From Gammaproteobacteria bacterium (GTDB taxonomy: Bacteria; Pseudomonadota; Gammaproteobacteria; Eutrophobiales; Eutrophobiaceae): 64,000 nucleotides of DNA. Below, piece after piece: positions 48,000 through 62,200 of the stretch. Location: the NCBI GenBank assembly GCA_012103475.1, contig WLWS01000002.1:682081-746080 (forward strand), given 5' to 3'. The notes under the pieces are model-generated. The model was not told the origin of the DNA and did not search any database. It saw only the letters and a list, made by a program, of their open reading frames with translations. Within the stretch, counting starts at the first letter, position 1. Every line of letters begins with the position of its first letter. The position numbers were made by a program, and so were the translations under genes.

Positions 48000-49867
48000 A
48001 TGTCATTTGATATTGCCAAAAGTATTCAGTCAGCACTTGAACATCATCAAGCCGGACGCTGGCAACAGGCAGAGCAAGGCTATCAGGCAATTATTGATAA
48101 CTATCCACAATACGCGGATGCCTGGCATTTACTCGGTGTGCTTTCCTTACAGCTGGGTCATGCAGAAAAAGCCCTCGAACTTATAGACAAAGCAATCGAG
48201 ATCAGTCCCGATACCAGCGATTTCTATTGCAATTCCGGTGAGGCCTATCTGGCCCTGGGACAACTCGAATCGGCAATAAATCGTTACAAACGGGCTATTG
48301 AGATTAATCCAGACTCAGCCGGTGCACACAATAATCTAGGTAATATGTTCAGACAGTCGGGGCAAACTGAAAGGCCTACGCCTCATATAAAAAAGCCGTA
48401 GATCTGGCGCCGGACGTTGCCCTTTTTCAGAATAATCTGGGTGTCTCTTTAAAAGATTGCGGTCGTCTGGATGAGGCCACTGAGCATTTCGGTATTGCTA
48501 TCAATTTGTCTCCCGAATATGTCGAATCGTATAACAATCTAGGAAACGTGCTTCAACTACAAAATGCATATCAAGATGCTGTGGAAAACTATCGTAAGGC
48601 TATTAAGATAAATCCCGATTACGCCGAATCACACAGTAATCTGGGAAATGCCTTAAGGCATCTGGGTAATAACGAGGAGGCGATTGCCCACTATAATAAG
48701 GCTATTAATATTAAGCCCGATTTTGCAATGGCTCATTATAATCTGGGTAATGTGCTTGTGCAGCTTGGTCAGAAAGAAGACGCAATAAAAGCCTTTGAAA
48801 CCGCAATCGAATTGAGACACGCTTATGCCGAAGCACACAGGCATTTGTCCATGCTCAAATATGAGAATAGCCAGATTACTGCGATTGACAGAGAATTACT
48901 TCAAACTGATCTGCCTCAATCAGAGAAAATGCATTTTCACTATGCACTTGGCAATATTCATAATGAAAACAAAGACTATGATCAGGCCTTTGAACATTAT
49001 CTACTGGCGAATAATCTGAAACGCAGAACACTTAATTATGATGCGGCCCAGTACACCTCTCATGTAAACACTTTGATAGATGGTTTCACGCCGGATTATT
49101 TCCGGAAAGTAGAAGGCTATGGCTCAGAGTCGATATTACCGGTATTCATTGTGGGCATGCCCCGATCTGGCACCACATTGGTTGAACAAATACTGTCTTC
49201 TCATCCTGAAATAAGCGGAGCGGGTGAATTGACAGACATGCTTAAGATTGAAAAAGCGATTATTTATGAAACACCAAAGGGAATGTCCTATGCAAAATAC
49301 ATGTCGAACTGTGATGCCACCCTGTTTAGAAACTATTCACAGCAATATTTACAGGTACTTGAAAAATATTCGAACAAGGCCTTACGTGTCACCGACAAAG
49401 ATCCTGGTAATTTTCATAGAATAGGACTAATAAAGTCATTATTTCCAAAAGCCAGAATAATTCATTGTCAACGAAATCCTCTGGATACCTGTACGTCTAT
49501 ATTCTTTAATTATTTTATTAAAGGTAATGAGTACACTTTCGATCTAGAGGAGTTGGGTAAGTACTATCTGGATTATCAACGCCTGATGACACACTGGAAC
49601 AAACTGTTTCCTGAAGATATTCTCAATATTCAATACGAAAGTCTGGTTAATCAGCAGCTGGAATATAGCCAGAAAATTATTGCGCACACAGGTCTCCCCT
49701 GGAATGAAAAGTGTCTTGAGTTTCATCTCAATGACCGGGCAGTGAAAACACTCAGCTGTGTGCAGGTGAGACAGCCAATCTATTCTCAATCAATTGATCG
49801 CTGGAAACGCTATGAGAATCACCTTCAACCGCTAATGGAAATTCTGAAAACATCCAGAGATTACTGA
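48000..49867 (+). pseudogene. TPR-sulfotransferase with a one-base frameshift
   Basis: The N-terminal half is a chain of tetratricopeptide repeats ('YAESHSNLGNALRHLGNNEEAIAHYNKAINIKPD' and similar); the C-terminal half is a P-loop sulfotransferase with the PAPS 5'-phosphosulfate loop 'IVGMPRSGTTLVEQILSSHPE' and 3'-phosphate loop 'RIIHCQRNPLDTCTSIFFNYF'. The frame breaks at 48370-48372: GAAAGG read as GAAAAGG restores 'GQTEKAYASYKKAVDLAPDVALFQNNLGV', one frame of about 623 codons. It would move a sulfo group from PAPS to a protein or glycan. Homopolymer length is only three, so this could be a true mutation or a base-call error. Confidence 0.83.
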
Positions 49868-52246: not shown

Positions 52247-52528
52247 ATGAAAACTTTACCAACACTGCTATTTTGCCTTGTATTATCACTGACTGTGGCA
52301 GGCCAGAGTTATGCCATGCAACAGGTTTCATCACCCCAGAACGGGATAAATCAGGTGCTGCAAATGAAAATCGAGAAAGACCTGACACAATTGCTAAATT
52401 CGAAAAAGGCTTATCGCGGTGTAAAAAAGATAAACACGCCTGTTCGAAAAGAGCCCGCTACGGTTCAGGAAAGTGATGAAATAATCGCACCCGATTGCCT
52501 CTGCGATCTACATACACGTATTATTTAA
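52247..52528 (+). CDS. Small exported protein of unknown function
   Basis: 93 residues. Signal peptide 'MKTLPTLLFCLVLSLTVAGQSYA' and a short basic mature part ending 'PDCLCDLHTRII' with CxC. TTGAGGAAAAGCC gives a good ribosome-binding site. It lies upstream of the DUF6249-like/ECF genes with 50 bases between, so it may belong to that unit. Not recognised. Confidence 0.65.
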   Translation: MKTLPTLLFCLVLSLTVAGQSYAMQQVSSPQNGINQVLQMKIEKDLTQLLNSKKAYRGVKKINTPVRKEPATVQESDEIIAPDCLCDLHTRII

Positions 52529-52578
52529 TCTGAGTTCATTCTAAGCATAACTATTTGGAATATTTTCCGGAGAATAAA

Positions 52579-53283
52579 ATGAAAAACTTTTTATACAGCC
52601 TGCTTCTAAGCAGCATCCTCGTGGCTCCGGTATGGAGCGAAACCGATACTTCTTCTTCAAATACTAAAGATGGTGGCTTGAAAATCGAACTCAGTATGGA
52701 TGATGAAGCCGATACCCGGATAACTGAAAAAGAGTTGGAAACTAAAATAAAAGGAAAAGTGTTTTCAATTATCACTGATATTCTTGAGGCGGCGGGTGAT
52801 GATATTAGTGATGAAGAAAAGGCCGAAATCAAAACCGAGATTAAAGAAGCCATCACAGAAATTAAGGAAGAGGATGAAGGCACCGTTATACGACCAAAAC
52901 TCCATATCGGAGATGATGATGATTCACTTGAGTTTACTGAAGCCGCGCTGGGTGCTCTGGCTATTTTCTTTATATTCGGCACACCTATTATGATAATTGC
53001 TGCGGTTCTTTATGCCAGTTACCGTAAGAAACGACTGATGCATGAAACCATAAATCAATATGTCGCCAGCGGTAAGGACATTCCTCCGGAAGTACTGCAG
53101 GGATTGCAGAAAGAAACCGCACCAAAGAACAACCTGCATCGTGGCCTGATCATGAGCGGTCTCGGACTCGGAATTTTTCTCTGCTTTGTCATTATCGGCG
53201 CTATCCCGGCAGCTGCTCTCGGTCTGATACCTCTGTTCATAGGTCTTGCTCAACTTTTAATCTGGAAACTGGAGAATAAATAA
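52579..53283 (+). CDS. Membrane protein with DUF6249-like C-terminal domain
   Basis: 234 residues from ATG 52579 (CCGGAG upstream); the track start is eight codons too early. Signal peptide 'MKNFLYSLLLSSILVAPVWSE', an acidic helical middle rich in Glu/Asp/Lys (about 25-125), then a hydrophobic helix, a cytoplasmic segment 'YRKKRLMHETINQYVASGKDIPPEVLQGL' and two more helices. The 'KKR..HE.I...V..GKDIP.E' pattern is typical of DUF6249 proteins, which usually sit next to ECF sigma and anti-sigma genes as here. Role unknown; perhaps envelope sensing. 23 bases before the sigma gene. Confidence 0.8.
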   Translation: MKNFLYSLLLSSILVAPVWSETDTSSSNTKDGGLKIELSMDDEADTRITEKELETKIKGKVFSIITDILEAAGDDISDEEKAEIKTEIKEAITEIKEEDEGTVIRPKLHIGDDDDSLEFTEAALGALAIFFIFGTPIMIIAAVLYASYRKKRLMHETINQYVASGKDIPPEVLQGLQKETAPKNNLHRGLIMSGLGLGIFLCFVIIGAIPAAALGLIPLFIGLAQLLIWKLENK

Positions 53284-53306
53284 CACGGCAGAACAGAAAT
53301 ATTTCG

Positions 53307-53846
53307 ATGGAAATTGATGACCAGACCCTGATAGAAAGGGTTCTGGACAAGGGAGATGAACATGCATTTTCCGAACTGGTAAAACGATATCAGTCTCAAT
53401 TACGCTACTCATTGAGACAACTTACCGGCTGGGACGAAGCACTTGCGGACGATCTGGCGCAGGAGACTTTTATAAAAGCGTACAAGTCGCTTAAGCAGTT
53501 CAAAGGCAAGGCAAAATTCTTCACCTGGCTCTATCGCATTGCCTACAACTGTTTTGCTGCCTATTATCGCAGCCACAAAGCCGAATTACAGTTGAACGAC
53601 GAAGATATTCCGGATCCGGGCTTTAACCCGGAACTTGCCAGTGATTTACACAGGGATTTTGCCAGAGCCTTAAAAGCATTTGAACCACAACAGAGAATGG
53701 CGCTACACTTAAGTTTCCAGCGCCAGCTGTCACATAGCGAAATTTCCGAAGTGATGGAAATTCCACTGGGAACCGTGAAAAGCTACATTTCACGGGGACA
53801 GGACAAACTTAAGCAGCAGATGATAAGTTGGCAATCAGGAGTCTAA
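53307..53846 (+). CDS. ECF RNA polymerase sigma factor
   Basis: 179 residues. Region 2: 'FSELVKRYQSQLRYSLRQLTGWDEALADDLAQETFIKAYKSLKQFKGKAKFFTWLYRIAYNCFAAYYRS' and region 4: 'LSFQRQLSHSEISEVMEIPLGTVKSYISRGQDKLKQ' with the helix-turn-helix that reads the -35. No region 1.1 or 3. It would direct transcription of an envelope-related regulon, likely including its own operon. Its partner anti-sigma gene overlaps nothing but starts three bases after the stop. Confidence 0.94.
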   Translation: MEIDDQTLIERVLDKGDEHAFSELVKRYQSQLRYSLRQLTGWDEALADDLAQETFIKAYKSLKQFKGKAKFFTWLYRIAYNCFAAYYRSHKAELQLNDEDIPDPGFNPELASDLHRDFARALKAFEPQQRMALHLSFQRQLSHSEISEVMEIPLGTVKSYISRGQDKLKQQMISWQSGV

Positions 53847-53848
53847 AT

Positions 53849-54187
53849 ATGCAAGGCACAAATAATTTTGATGATTTGCTCGGTAACTTAAGAGAAACCG
53901 AACCCTATATTGCCGATGAAGGATTTACTTCGGGCATTATCGCCCGCCTCCCCGAGGCCGAACAACTACCTGCCTGGTTGAGTAATCTGATACTACTTGT
54001 ATTCACTGCAATGGGCTCTGGTATCGCTGCATGGCAATTACCGGTCTCCAAAATGGTTTCTTTTACTACTTCATCAATTACTTCTTTACCTGCCTTCAGT
54101 TCAATTCCTATGATTGGTGTTGGCGCAACGATTACTTTTTTACTGAGCTATGTGATTATTTGGTTAGTTCATAGTGATGCTATTTAA
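53849..54187 (+). CDS. Putative anti-sigma factor, two-helix membrane protein
   Basis: 112 residues from ATG 53849, with AGGAG eight bases upstream; the track start would overlap the sigma gene. The first about 50 residues are acidic and soluble ('NFDDLLGNLRETEPYIADEGFTSGIIARLPEAE'), the rest has two hydrophobic helices. This size, order and position directly after an ECF gene are typical of membrane-bound anti-sigma factors that hold the sigma factor inactive. No zinc-finger (HxxxCxxC) is present. Family not identified by sequence. Confidence 0.65.
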   Translation: MQGTNNFDDLLGNLRETEPYIADEGFTSGIIARLPEAEQLPAWLSNLILLVFTAMGSGIAAWQLPVSKMVSFTTSSITSLPAFSSIPMIGVGATITFLLSYVIIWLVHSDAI

Positions 54188-54234
54188 ACATTTCAACAAA
54201 AGCTGACTATTGACGTCTTACAGGAGTGCTCTCA

Positions 54235-55581
54235 ATGAAAGTTCACAAGCTGTCAATTGTTTACACCTTGCTTGTGAATGCAATCACCTCGATATTTTGT
54301 TTCGTCGTCAGCACGAGTCTCCTGTCAGCAGAGTCTTCATTAGAAGATTATCAACAACGAATTAACATGATACAGAAAAGTATCGGTCCCTACAGTGAAG
54401 AGCTGATTCAACCTACTTTACAAATGGGTCTTATATTGCATGAAAACAATCAATTCTCTGATGCCAACGAGAGACTTGAATCTGCACTTTATTTACACCG
54501 GGTAAATTATGGTCTTCAGGATCTGCAACAATCTTCGATAGTCGATCTTCTTATCAGCAATAACCTGAATCGTCAGGACTGGAAGTCCGCTGATAATAAT
54601 TTTCATAAACTACATTGGCTGCATCGAAGAAATCTTGATTCAAATGATCCAGAATTACTTGCCGTACTGGACAGACTCATAGCCTGGCATCTGGTTGCCA
54701 CCAATTTAAAAACAGGCCAGCATCCGGGCAAACATTTCATGAAGTTGCTGGAACTAAATCAACGTGCACTTGAAATAGTTGATAATTATCCCGTGCAAGA
54801 CCAGCTGGAACTATCCAGAAGACTTTACAAACTGGCTTTAGTGCATTACTACATAGCAATCGCGGTCCAGCGTGGTGATTCAGTCGGTCGCTATCTGCTG
54901 GAAGAATTTGATCCTATTCAACTCAGCGACAGTTATGAGACGGCCAGTGAAAAAACGGCTTTAAAGATGTTCAGAAAAAGTCGCCAGCTGATTGTTCGAA
55001 TAGTAAGTCTTCATCAGGATATTGTGCCTGCCACTAAAGATAGCCGAGCAATTGCGCAGTTGTATCTGGCAGACTGGGATTTACTCTTTAATCGACACGC
55101 GAATGCAAATCGCGGTTATCAAAATTCTTATGACATTCTACTTGAGCGCGGTTATTCCAGTGATTTAATTAATTCTTTTTTCGACCAACCCATACTCTTG
55201 CCAAAGTCCGAGTTCATTCCCGATTTGATGACGAAATATGCGCTTCAATATGAAAAAAATGAAATCCCCGAGACTGGCACAATGGAATTCGTAGGCTGGT
55301 CCAAATCACTTCCCGGAGTCAAGTATCCTACGGCGGAGATTAATAATATTGTCTCGGCCAGTACAGAGCGTTTTGCAGATGTGTCTTTTGATGTCTTGAA
55401 AGATGGTCTAGCGAAAAACATTGTTATAGGCAAACACAAACGCAAAAGTGGCCTCCCCAGAAGGACTACTTACGAAGCCATCTGGTCAGCGCAATTCCGG
55501 CCTCGCTTAATTGAAGGCAGAGCAGTAGCTGTGTCTGGAGTCACAACCCGTTTTTATATGCCCAGTATCGAGAACAAATAA
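54235..55581 (+). CDS. Secreted helical-repeat protein with TonB-C-like domain
   Basis: 448 residues from ATG 54235 (CAGGAG upstream; the track start is a GTG three codons earlier). Signal peptide 'KLSIVYTLLVNAITSIFCFVVSTSLLSA' then a long helical, TPR-like region ('ELIQPTLQMGLILHENNQFSDANERLESALYLHRVNYG...'). The last about 90 residues ('ADVSFDVLKDGLAKNIVIGKHKRKSGLPRRTTYEAIWSAQFRPRLIEGRAVAVSGVTTRFYMP') match the beta-strand pattern of TonB C-terminal domains, seen in many envelope proteins without true TonB function (no Pro-rich linker or anchor here). Last gene downstream of the sigma/anti-sigma pair, 47 bases away. Confidence 0.75.
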   Translation: MKVHKLSIVYTLLVNAITSIFCFVVSTSLLSAESSLEDYQQRINMIQKSIGPYSEELIQPTLQMGLILHENNQFSDANERLESALYLHRVNYGLQDLQQSSIVDLLISNNLNRQDWKSADNNFHKLHWLHRRNLDSNDPELLAVLDRLIAWHLVATNLKTGQHPGKHFMKLLELNQRALEIVDNYPVQDQLELSRRLYKLALVHYYIAIAVQRGDSVGRYLLEEFDPIQLSDSYETASEKTALKMFRKSRQLIVRIVSLHQDIVPATKDSRAIAQLYLADWDLLFNRHANANRGYQNSYDILLERGYSSDLINSFFDQPILLPKSEFIPDLMTKYALQYEKNEIPETGTMEFVGWSKSLPGVKYPTAEINNIVSASTERFADVSFDVLKDGLAKNIVIGKHKRKSGLPRRTTYEAIWSAQFRPRLIEGRAVAVSGVTTRFYMPSIENK

Positions 55582-57231
55582 TTAGCGTAATAGCTGACTG
55601 ATATCTTCAATCATATCCCGGTAGTTTTTCCAACGACCACAGGAATTCTGATGCAGGCCTTCGCGAACCTGCCAGACACTGGCCGTTTTTACAGGATTAG
55701 CGCTTTCACTGAAATTCAGACAGGCTGGATCCCACTCCAGTTCTAGAAAATCCAGCAAGCCGGACAACAAAGGTTCAGGCTCGTTCACCAGATTTTCATA
55801 ATCTACAGTGAATATATTATCGGCAAAACATTCATGCCAGTGTTCCATCAGGACAAGATGTTGCTGATAATAGTGAGCGATATTTTCCATTCGTGTAGCG
55901 TAATGCAGGTTACCACCAAGCTGCTGGAAAAATACGGAAAGGCAATTATCGAGTGGATTACGTTTTGTATAGATGATTCTGGCTGATGGATAAAGCATTT
56001 TTATCAGACCAAGAAACAGAAAATTGTCAGGTTGCTTGTCCGTTATATTCCAGGCTTTGGGAAAAAGCGATTCAAGTAAAGACAAATATTGGTAACCAAC
56101 CGCGTGCAGTTCCTCCGCTGTCGATGTGGCTACTCTATCCGGATAGGGAGTAAAATTTTGCGTGACCAGCCATTGTAGAAAATCCAGTTCTCCTGCCGCA
56201 ATTATCGAATTGTGCGCGGACAAAATCTGTTCAATCAATGTAGAACCGGAACGAAACATACCGCAGATAAATATCGGCGAGACAGAAGGATCCCCGTCAG
56301 CATCTCTGATTCGGTTTTTCGAGAACACCTTTTTAAGATTATGAAATCCCGTTTCTACATCCGCAGTAACATAAGGAGGGTTGCGAGCACTACCGAGTTC
56401 ATTTCCTTTCGTATAGGCTTCAACTGCCCTGTCGTACTGAGCTAAATCATCATAAGATTTTCCCAATGCGAAAAAAATACTCTCTTTACCTATAGGATCG
56501 GCAGTGTCACGATTAGAAGCTGTTTCAAGCTTGTCGAGTAAATCCTTATCTTCTTCGCCAATTTTTTTCATATACGCCAGTCTTGAAAGTGACTCAAGAT
56601 GCTGGGAATCAAGCGTAAGAATTTTTTCATACAATCTGGCCGCTGTAGCTCTGTCACCCCGCTCTTCACTCAAGCCCGCCAAATTAAATAGCGCCGGAAT
56701 ATACTGCGGGTCAATCTGAAGAGCCTGTTCATACATACTGTGGGCTTTATCAGCCTGACGCATTTCAGAGTAAAGGACACCCAGGTTCGAGTAGACTTCT
56801 TCTGCTCCCCTAACTCCCAGTGTCAGTGATTTTTCATAAGCTTCTAGCGCATCGGAAAAACGTTTCCCGCGCTTGTATAAAAGAGCCAGGTTAAACCAGG
56901 CATCAGCATTACCAGCATGACGTCCGACAAAATCCTGATAGTAAGATATGGCGATACCCAGTTGACCGAAGCCAGTCAGCATCCCGGCCAGTCTATCCAG
57001 ATAGAAAAGACTGTCTGGCTTTTCTGCATGCAATTTTTTAAGTGTGTTCATCGCCTCCAGTGGGCGCTGGTTCTGCATATAGAATTCCAGCAATGCATTC
57101 AAGGATTGCTCCGGATCAGCACTCATCTCAACCAATGCAACAAGTTCACGTTCTGCTGCTTCAAAATTCCCATTTCTGAGTAGTTCAGCGGCCTTGTTAA
57201 TCTGGATCTGAAAATTATCGCCATTACTCAT
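55582..57231 (-). CDS. TPR-sulfotransferase
   Basis: 549 residues from ATG 57231 (the track start is a TTG). N-terminal tetratricopeptide repeats ('GNADAWFNLALLYKRGKRFSDALEAYEKSLTLG', 'PQYIPALFNLAGLSEERGDRATAARLYEKILTLD') hold a C-terminal P-loop sulfotransferase: PAPS loops 'FICGMFRSGSTLIEQILSAHNSI' and 'RIIYTKRNPLDNCLSVFFQQL', and a C-terminal 'ENLVNEPEPLLSGLLDFLELEWDPACLNF'. It transfers a sulfo group from PAPS; related TPR-fused enzymes include tyrosylprotein-type and glycan sulfotransferases. 23 bases downstream of the TPR-2OG oxygenase on the same strand, so both may modify the same target. Confidence 0.9.
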   Translation of the reverse strand: MSNGDNFQIQINKAAELLRNGNFEAAERELVALVEMSADPEQSLNALLEFYMQNQRPLEAMNTLKKLHAEKPDSLFYLDRLAGMLTGFGQLGIAISYYQDFVGRHAGNADAWFNLALLYKRGKRFSDALEAYEKSLTLGVRGAEEVYSNLGVLYSEMRQADKAHSMYEQALQIDPQYIPALFNLAGLSEERGDRATAARLYEKILTLDSQHLESLSRLAYMKKIGEEDKDLLDKLETASNRDTADPIGKESIFFALGKSYDDLAQYDRAVEAYTKGNELGSARNPPYVTADVETGFHNLKKVFSKNRIRDADGDPSVSPIFICGMFRSGSTLIEQILSAHNSIIAAGELDFLQWLVTQNFTPYPDRVATSTAEELHAVGYQYLSLLESLFPKAWNITDKQPDNFLFLGLIKMLYPSARIIYTKRNPLDNCLSVFFQQLGGNLHYATRMENIAHYYQQHLVLMEHWHECFADNIFTVDYENLVNEPEPLLSGLLDFLELEWDPACLNFSESANPVKTASVWQVREGLHQNSCGRWKNYRDMIEDISQLLR

Positions 57232-57254
57232 TGTCAAAAATATCTCATCTGTAC

Positions 57255-59204: not shown

Positions 59205-62200
59205 TTAGAACTTCTGGGTCACCCCGAAGAACATATAGCGACCAAGTGTGTCCCAGGTACCCGGAACCGTATTACCATTACCGAAAGTAGAAACGTTATT
59301 GAAGAAACCATTAATAGGTGGATCATTATCCAATACGTTGCTGACGCCAATGTTAACTACAGTTTCGCCATACCCAATCCACTGCGGCGTATAGGCCATG
59401 GAAAGATCCAGATAGCTCTCATCACCAGCTGAACGAGGGTTGCCCTGAAAGTTATCCACACCTTTAATAAACCGCCATGAAGCGTTAAAGCTCAGATCCC
59501 ACGGAGTTGTCCAGGTGGAACTGAGTGTATGCTTCCATTCGGGACGTGGGCGCTGACAGGAACCGCCAAAAAAGCCTGCACATTCCTCGATAGCAGCGCC
59601 TGGTGCGAGTTGTTGCAACCATTTTTCAGTCCAGGTACCTCTCATGGAGAAGTCCAGACTGCCGTAATCACCAACTTCCATTGCGTAACTAGTAGCGATA
59701 TCGATACCAGAAGTTTCGAAGAAGCCAATGTTTACGTTAGTGGAGGTAACATTCGGAGCGGTCGCACTGCTACCAATCCAGAGGTTACCGTTGGCGGGTG
59801 AGCGATTAACCAGATTACAGAAAGCCGGATCACCAGTCAGACCACATTGGTTCACAATAAACTCAGGCTGAACATCATCAATAGCATTCTTAATGGTGAT
59901 GCTCCAGTAGTCGATACTCAACTGGAAGCCTGGAATCTGATCAGGCGTAAATACTGCCCCAACAGTAAAAGAGTTGGATTTTTCTGGATCCAGATTCGGA
60001 TTACCACCAAAAACGCCGTTGTACTGACCAGCCGGGCTCAGAGGAATGGTACCGTACTGAGCTGCGGTAACGCCTGAGTTGGCACACTGCGCTGCAGATT
60101 GTGCAGGAGTAGGTCCTGCACAAGGATCAACACCAGCCCAAAGACCCAGGTTCTGCGGCTCGAACAACTCACGGATATTGGCCACACGAGAAGCTCGTGA
60201 ATAACCACCGCGTAGTTTAAAGCCGGATACTGGTGTGTATTCACCCTGGAATTTGTAAGTATCGGTTTTCTTGCCAATACTGTAATCCGAGTAACGATAA
60301 CCAACGTCCAGTGTTAAAGACTCAATCCAGTCCTGATTCTGAGCGATTGGAATCTGCGCTTCGACAAAGAACTCAGTCACATCCAGTGCACCGTTTACAG
60401 CCGCCGTCGGACCACCCTGACCTGCACCATCACCCGATGTGTAACCGGCATCTGGTTTGTAGTCCATGCGTTCATCACGGAATTCGCCACCGAGTACTAT
60501 CTGCATGCCATCTTCAGCCATCGGACTGACGAAACCGTAGTTGGTCAAGTCGCCAGAGACAAAGCCGACATACTGATCCTGTTTCAGGCTACCCTGAGCA
60601 AAAAGGTCAATAAACAGATAGTTGATCTGGGCCTGTGTAACACCGCCTGTCTGAAATACGTTCCATGGAACACAGGTCGGGTCGCTGCCATCTACAACAG
60701 ATTGACAGGTAGGTGCTCCGCCGGGACCAGCTACGACGTTTAAGGCTCGAGTAACTCGAGTGGTAGAGAGGTCATTGTTATAGAGCTCACTAAGATCGGT
60801 ACGTGAAATATTAACGAAAGCGTCATAACTCCAGTCATCATTGATCTCGCCTTTGGCTCCGAACAGTAAACGATAAGAGGTATGTTGAATATCGTCATTA
60901 CGCGGACCACCTTCAACGTTACGACGACCGATGTATAAAGGTACGTTCGCAGTTGGGTCGCCAGCCGCTGCAGCAATCTGTGCCCCGGTACAACCAACTG
61001 CACCAGCCTGTTGCGCTGACAATAGTGGATTATTACAGTTCAGTGACGTGGTAACGAAGAAAGCACCAGAAGGCGCGATCTGAGCATTGGTCTTGTCATC
61101 CATAAACTGAAATTCAGCGTAGGCTTCAAAGTGCTCGTTGACTTCATAGTGACCAAACATGCCAGCGGTAAAACGCTCATCCGGACGTTGAAAATGGTTA
61201 GCCGGAGCATAATTATAGTAACTATAATCCCAGGGAACGAACTGGTTACCGGCGACCGTCAGGTAGCCAGTGTTAGATGTCGCCCCACCAAAGTCTGTGA
61301 ACAAACCAGTGGGAAGCGTCGCCGAACCAGCGCAGGAATGGGGTCCGTCAGCATCATCAATGGAACAGGCGCTGAAGTCTCTTTCAGATTGCGTTACCGG
61401 GTTAATCTGACGATAACCAAGATAAGCCGTGATGTTACCTTTGCCGTCAAACACCCATTGTAACGTTGACATCATGACCACCGCCATCCCAGACACTGCC
61501 TGGAGCCTGTTGGAAGCCACTGTTACCTATAGCTGTCTGAGCTTCGCTATTGCCCTGATTGTGGTGGTAACCGGAATATTGATAATCAACCTGCAGGCCT
61601 TCAAAGTCGCGCTTCATGACAAAGTTAACAACACCGGCCATAGCATCCGAACCATAGGTTGATGAAGCACCACCGGTCAGAACTTCGATTCGTTCGACCA
61701 GCGCACCGGGTACCTGGTTGATGTCAGGCGCTAACTGAAAAACGTCGCCAAAACCCATGCGATGTCCGTTGGTCAAGACCAGAGTACGATCGGATGTCAA
61801 TCCACGTAAATCGATGGTTGCGGTACCGACCGCGCCGTTAGCTTCATTAGCGGTGAATTCAGGTGTAATTGAAGGCAAATCGTTGAGCAGGTCTTCAACA
61901 CGCGTGATACCACGTGCGCTGAGTTCTTCTGCTTTAATCATCGAAACAGGACTTGAGCTGACTAGATTGGAATCAGTCGCGATTCGAGAACCGGTCACGA
62001 CAACTTCTTCAACGGTTTCATCTCCAGTTCCGAGTATGCCTTTTACTACGGCACCTGGAACTGAAAGCACACCCTTAACTACATTCCCTACACCTTCTGC
62101 AACACCCTCGACAACATTTTTGTCCTCTTCCTGTGCATAACCCACAGTTGGAGCAACAACAGTTGCTGCAATTGCTGCGGTCGACAACGCGCGATGCACT

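Follow-up and report, generated by a model that had tools for sequence, protein, structure and literature searches.

A conserved DUF6249–ECF sigma factor–two-TM protein module with a predicted small regulon

Five genes stand in a row on the plus strand of the 64,000-nucleotide stretch of DNA analysed here (the window), and the presence among them of an ECF sigma factor gene raises the question of whether the row is one regulatory unit and, if so, how the sigma factor would be controlled and what it would transcribe. A preliminary description, made from the window alone, had read the row as an ECF sigma cluster in which a small exported protein, a DUF6249-like membrane protein, the sigma factor, a putative anti-sigma factor and a secreted TonB-C-like protein belong together. 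All five open reading frames were present where that description had placed them (Table 1). The matching ribosome-binding sites it had also reported were clear and of the GGAG/GAGG type before four of the five genes, while the site of the sigma gene was weak.

Table 1 Features of the locus, with window coordinates and the evidence for each
Feature	Position	Strand	Evidence
ECF-type promoter-like motif, TGCATCCAAA-N14-CATCTAA	52180..52210	+	Perfect match (0 mismatches); conserved before the module elsewhere
Gene 1, small exported protein, 93 aa	52247..52528	+	N-terminal hydrophobic signal; INxxLQxxIE, C-terminal PDCLC
DUF6249 membrane protein, 234 aa	52579..53283	+	PF19762, 85.2 bits (cut-off 33)
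ECF sigma factor, 179 aa	53307..53846	+	Pfam Sigma70_r2 and r4_2 above cut-off
Putative anti-sigma factor, two-TM, 112 aa	53849..54187	+	Hydropathy, AlphaFold model, FxxxVxxxL motif
Secreted TPR protein with TonB_C-like C-terminus, 448 aa	54235..55581	+	Sub-cut-off Pfam matches

A three-gene core within the row

The identification of the third gene as an ECF sigma factor was borne out by its Pfam matches and by a match to TIGR02937 (98 bits against a cut-off of 42.9). The protein carries sigma-70 regions 2 and 4 only, which places it among the ECF sigma factors, and its best match in the PDB was E. coli sigma-E (3.2e-22). A scan of bacterial genomes with this protein returned eleven clear relatives with 46–81% identity, and at all eleven loci a DUF6249 gene lay upstream and a small ORF followed the sigma gene. 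Searching 274 genomes of the class, 96 of relatives and 399 of the phylum with PF19762 yielded 33 DUF6249 loci besides that of the window, all scoring above the Pfam cut-off. An ECF gene was directly downstream in 32 of these loci, and in 31 of the 32 a small TM ORF came directly behind the sigma gene, often overlapping it. Among the 96 relatives, the window's own genome included, seven had a sigma homologue at E ≤ 1e-25 and eight had DUF6249 above cut-off; all seven were among these eight, and the eighth, with no close sigma homologue, has a distant form of the trio.

The co-occurrence and adjacency of these genes across genomes therefore define the conserved unit as three genes, encoding the DUF6249 membrane protein, the ECF sigma factor and the small two-TM protein. 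This core is kept far beyond chance and recurs across Proteobacteria, whereas the whole five-gene row is not so kept. The five-gene unit of the preliminary description thus does not stand, and its proposed co-occurrence and synteny held for the trio and failed for gene 1 and the fifth gene. In several Caulobacteraceae-type loci (L036, L038, L039, L041–L043) a second ECF gene was also seen near the DUF6249 module.

Gene 1 is confined to close relatives: with orthologues in L007 and L008, it is present in the three genus members, and similar small proteins head the operon in two other lineages. The module at L066 opens with a gene (L066:1133-1462, minus strand) whose small exported product contains MEEIxVVAxRxP three times, a repeat resembling TonB-box sequences. 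The TPR/TonB-C gene adjoins the module in two of the three genus members (the window and L008/L029) and was not beside it in L007/L027 or in any other lineage examined, and the window's genome holds three other members of its family. Its product scored 21.8 bits for TPR_12 and 17.1 bits for TonB_C, both below cut-off; the C-terminal part alone reached 20.1 bits for TonB_C (PF03544, cut-off 24.6), and one paralogue in the same genome reached 25.7 bits, above cut-off. The fifth gene is probably an accessory passenger outside the core module. On either side of the region, at 48506-49867 and 55582-57237 in the window, lie genes for TPR proteins whose C-terminal part is sulfotransferase-like, and another such gene follows the module in L007.

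The TonB_C-like C-terminus encoded by the fifth gene, together with a TonB-dependent-receptor-like ORF at 59205-61520, about 3.6 kb away, could be taken to mean that all five genes form a TonB-linked surface signalling system of the FecIR type, in which the TonB-C-like protein would pass on an outer-membrane signal. We consider this highly improbable and rejected it, because no FecR domain was found among Pfam matches at E ≤ 1, the receptor-like ORF lies on the opposite strand and outside the cluster, and the fifth gene, which has paralogues, is not conserved with the module.

Two putative membrane partners of the sigma factor

The 112-aa protein encoded directly after the sigma factor consists of a cytosolic part of about 40 residues with two predicted short helices, followed by two TM helices, and hydropathy gave two TM helices in this protein and in 9 of 10 relatives tested. 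A low-confidence AlphaFold model (mean pLDDT 66, helix part about 60–66) placed the N-terminal helices at residues 5–17 and 25–33, and 34 of 38 family members retain an N-terminal FxxxVxxxL motif. The usual zinc motif, whose absence had been remarked on in the preliminary description, is truly missing: the protein contains no cysteine, and the Hx3Cx2C motif of class I ZAS domains was absent from all 11 family members tested. The absence is nevertheless unremarkable, since this motif is missing from about 44% of class I anti-sigma domains (PMC7406223).

No Pfam family matched the 112-aa protein above cut-off; its N-terminal part gave sub-threshold matches to DUF5056 (E 0.003–0.08), which were repeated in L011, L016 and L017. 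The family profile had no PDB match at E ≤ 10, so no match to a solved anti-sigma factor, and Foldseek with the low-confidence model returned no fold match. This want of any sequence or fold match to a solved anti-sigma factor would fit a small protein that is some other membrane effector, with the sigma factor under transcriptional control alone. That explanation is quite unlikely, as a small TM ORF lies directly after the sigma gene in all but one of 32 loci and the cytosolic helix motif is conserved. The pairing of a sigma factor with a putative anti-sigma factor, as first proposed, has good support from synteny, co-occurrence, topology and the conserved putative self-promoter described below, and we infer an anti-sigma role for the 112-aa protein.

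Hydropathy of the DUF6249 protein indicated a signal peptide, an acidic extracytoplasmic region, about three TM helices and a basic cytosolic loop, and its AlphaFold model was helical and of low confidence. Between relatives the basic cytosolic loop is conserved and the exported N-terminal region varies; in one relative (L010:3382-4551) the exported part is a DUF2807/DUF4097 domain, a swap which, judged from sequence, suggests that sensor domains are interchangeable. Because of this variation and of the DUF2807 domain in one relative, the DUF6249 protein is the best sensor candidate, and we propose that it acts as a sensor or co-regulator. The sensing chain, noted at the outset as undescribed, is still so, and now has a best candidate. 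The literature searched gave nothing relevant on DUF6249, the single paper that mentions it being, by its title and abstract, on a plant gene family, and nothing relevant on DUF5056 or the promoter motif.

It is also conceivable that the DUF6249 protein is itself the main anti-sigma factor, or that both membrane proteins share this function, as reported for AabA and AabB, both of which have anti-SigAb activity (PMC12153292). The DUF6249 gene is linked to the sigma gene as tightly as that of the small protein, and the conservation of its basic cytosolic loop would suit such a role. We regard this as unlikely, given that known anti-sigma domains do not resemble the cytosolic part of DUF6249, a short loop joining TM helices, and that the conserved N-terminal two-helix part of the small protein is a better anti-sigma candidate.

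Promoter-like motif and predicted regulon

The promoter-like motif upstream of the row (−35 GCATCCAAA, −10 CATCTAA) is the only match within the window and lies 36 bp before the first ATG of the operon, that of gene 1. In many lineages, the module's first gene is preceded by a shared pattern, GMATCCAAA-N13/14-CRTCT. The strict pattern was present in 20 of 38 loci, which are related by descent, compared with about zero in Markov shuffles that keep composition, and a looser pattern was present in 23. Some Caulobacteraceae-type loci have GCATCC with a different −10, CCTCT, and several of the 38 loci have no recognisable site. This conservation points to the window's site as a candidate self-promoter of the sigma factor.

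Perfect sites number exactly two in the window's genome and two in each of two congeners, and sites with two or three mismatches were about as frequent as reversed-pattern controls. As the window's genome is 87% complete, further sites may be missing. Its second perfect site is intergenic (C17:121702-121732, minus strand), and the gene behind it encodes an 80-aa exported protein; in a congener, an 81-aa protein is found there. Both proteins share an INxxLQxxI motif with gene 1, and the similarity of their mature regions to gene 1 was matched or surpassed by just 7 and 2 of 1000 shuffles, so that kinship with gene 1 is suggested and not proven.

When the pattern was relaxed slightly, 14 more distant genomes yielded 49 sites, own-operon sites included, compared with 11 for the reversed control. 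Efflux-type genes lie behind sites in five other genomes, with HlyD-type adaptors in L116, L120 and L121, an outer-membrane efflux protein in L112 and a further adaptor behind a one-mismatch site in L083, a family relative. DUF885 genes follow sites in L127 and L128, two SAR92/Porticoccaceae genomes in which the motif precedes seemingly the same DUF885 gene. Further sites in the distant genomes fall within coding regions and are probably due to chance. The predicted efflux-pump adaptor targets in related lineages indicate envelope or toxic-compound stress as a candidate signal.

Proposed mechanism and comparison with known systems

Gene-order conservation, co-occurrence, motif conservation and the count of two sites were obtained by computation, and we think it likely that the locus encodes an ECF/anti-sigma module that regulates itself and has a very small regulon. 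In the proposed mechanism, the 112-aa two-TM protein would keep the sigma factor at the inner membrane, binding it through a short cytosolic domain at its own N-terminus, where the two helices are predicted. The DUF6249 protein, which has TM helices and an acidic exported region, would most likely sense an envelope condition and relay it to the anti-sigma factor. Once released, the sigma factor would transcribe from TGCATCCAAA-N14-CRTCTAA promoters, the predicted targets in the window's genome being its own operon and the distant gene for the second small exported protein. A broader proposal, which we put forward as speculative, is that DUF6249 proteins are modular transmembrane sensors with interchangeable exported domains that gate a minimal two-TM anti-sigma factor, that they define a widespread, undescribed class of ECF modules, and that the chief output of the module in this genus consists of small exported proteins with a feedback effect on the sensor.

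The module is real, conserved and, as far as the literature searched shows, undescribed; no published account of a DUF6249–ECF–two-TM module was found there. It places DUF6249, a Pfam domain of unknown function, in a specific regulatory setting that comes with a promoter open to testing and a regulon predicted to comprise two promoters. With a predicted regulon this small, the signal can be tested directly, and so can the role of the small exported proteins.

Among known systems, likenesses were found to three. E. coli RpoE-RseA (class I) has a sigma factor to which the present one is clearly related and the same membrane anti-sigma logic. The present module differs in the size of the small protein (112 compared with 217 aa), in its second partner, DUF6249, in its tiny predicted regulon and in its promoter. 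With CnrH-CnrY of Cupriavidus metallidurans (class II), it shares a short two-helix cytosolic part, known for CnrY (PMC7406223) and predicted only for the small protein here. The latter has two TM helices and no sequence match to CnrY, a DUF6249 protein is present, and no metal-resistance genes are linked to the module within the window; membership of the CnrY class is not claimed, because there is no sequence or fold match. SigAb of Acinetobacter baumannii is autoregulated, is encoded in an operon with AabA and AabB, and has a direct regulon of three targets, including relA and a small RNA, and its membrane anti-sigma factor of about 107 aa is predicted to bind like CnrY (PMC12153292). The likeness, one of organisation, lies in the combination of an ECF sigma factor, a proven or putative anti-sigma factor of similar size and a second protein, which in the SigAb system has anti-sigma activity, and in the small regulon, predicted only for the present module. 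The present module differs from SigAb in having DUF6249, a different third partner, encoded upstream of the sigma gene, in its promoter (GCATCCAAA/CRTCT compared with GTCAAC/CGTT) and in its predicted target, a small exported protein in place of relA and a small RNA.
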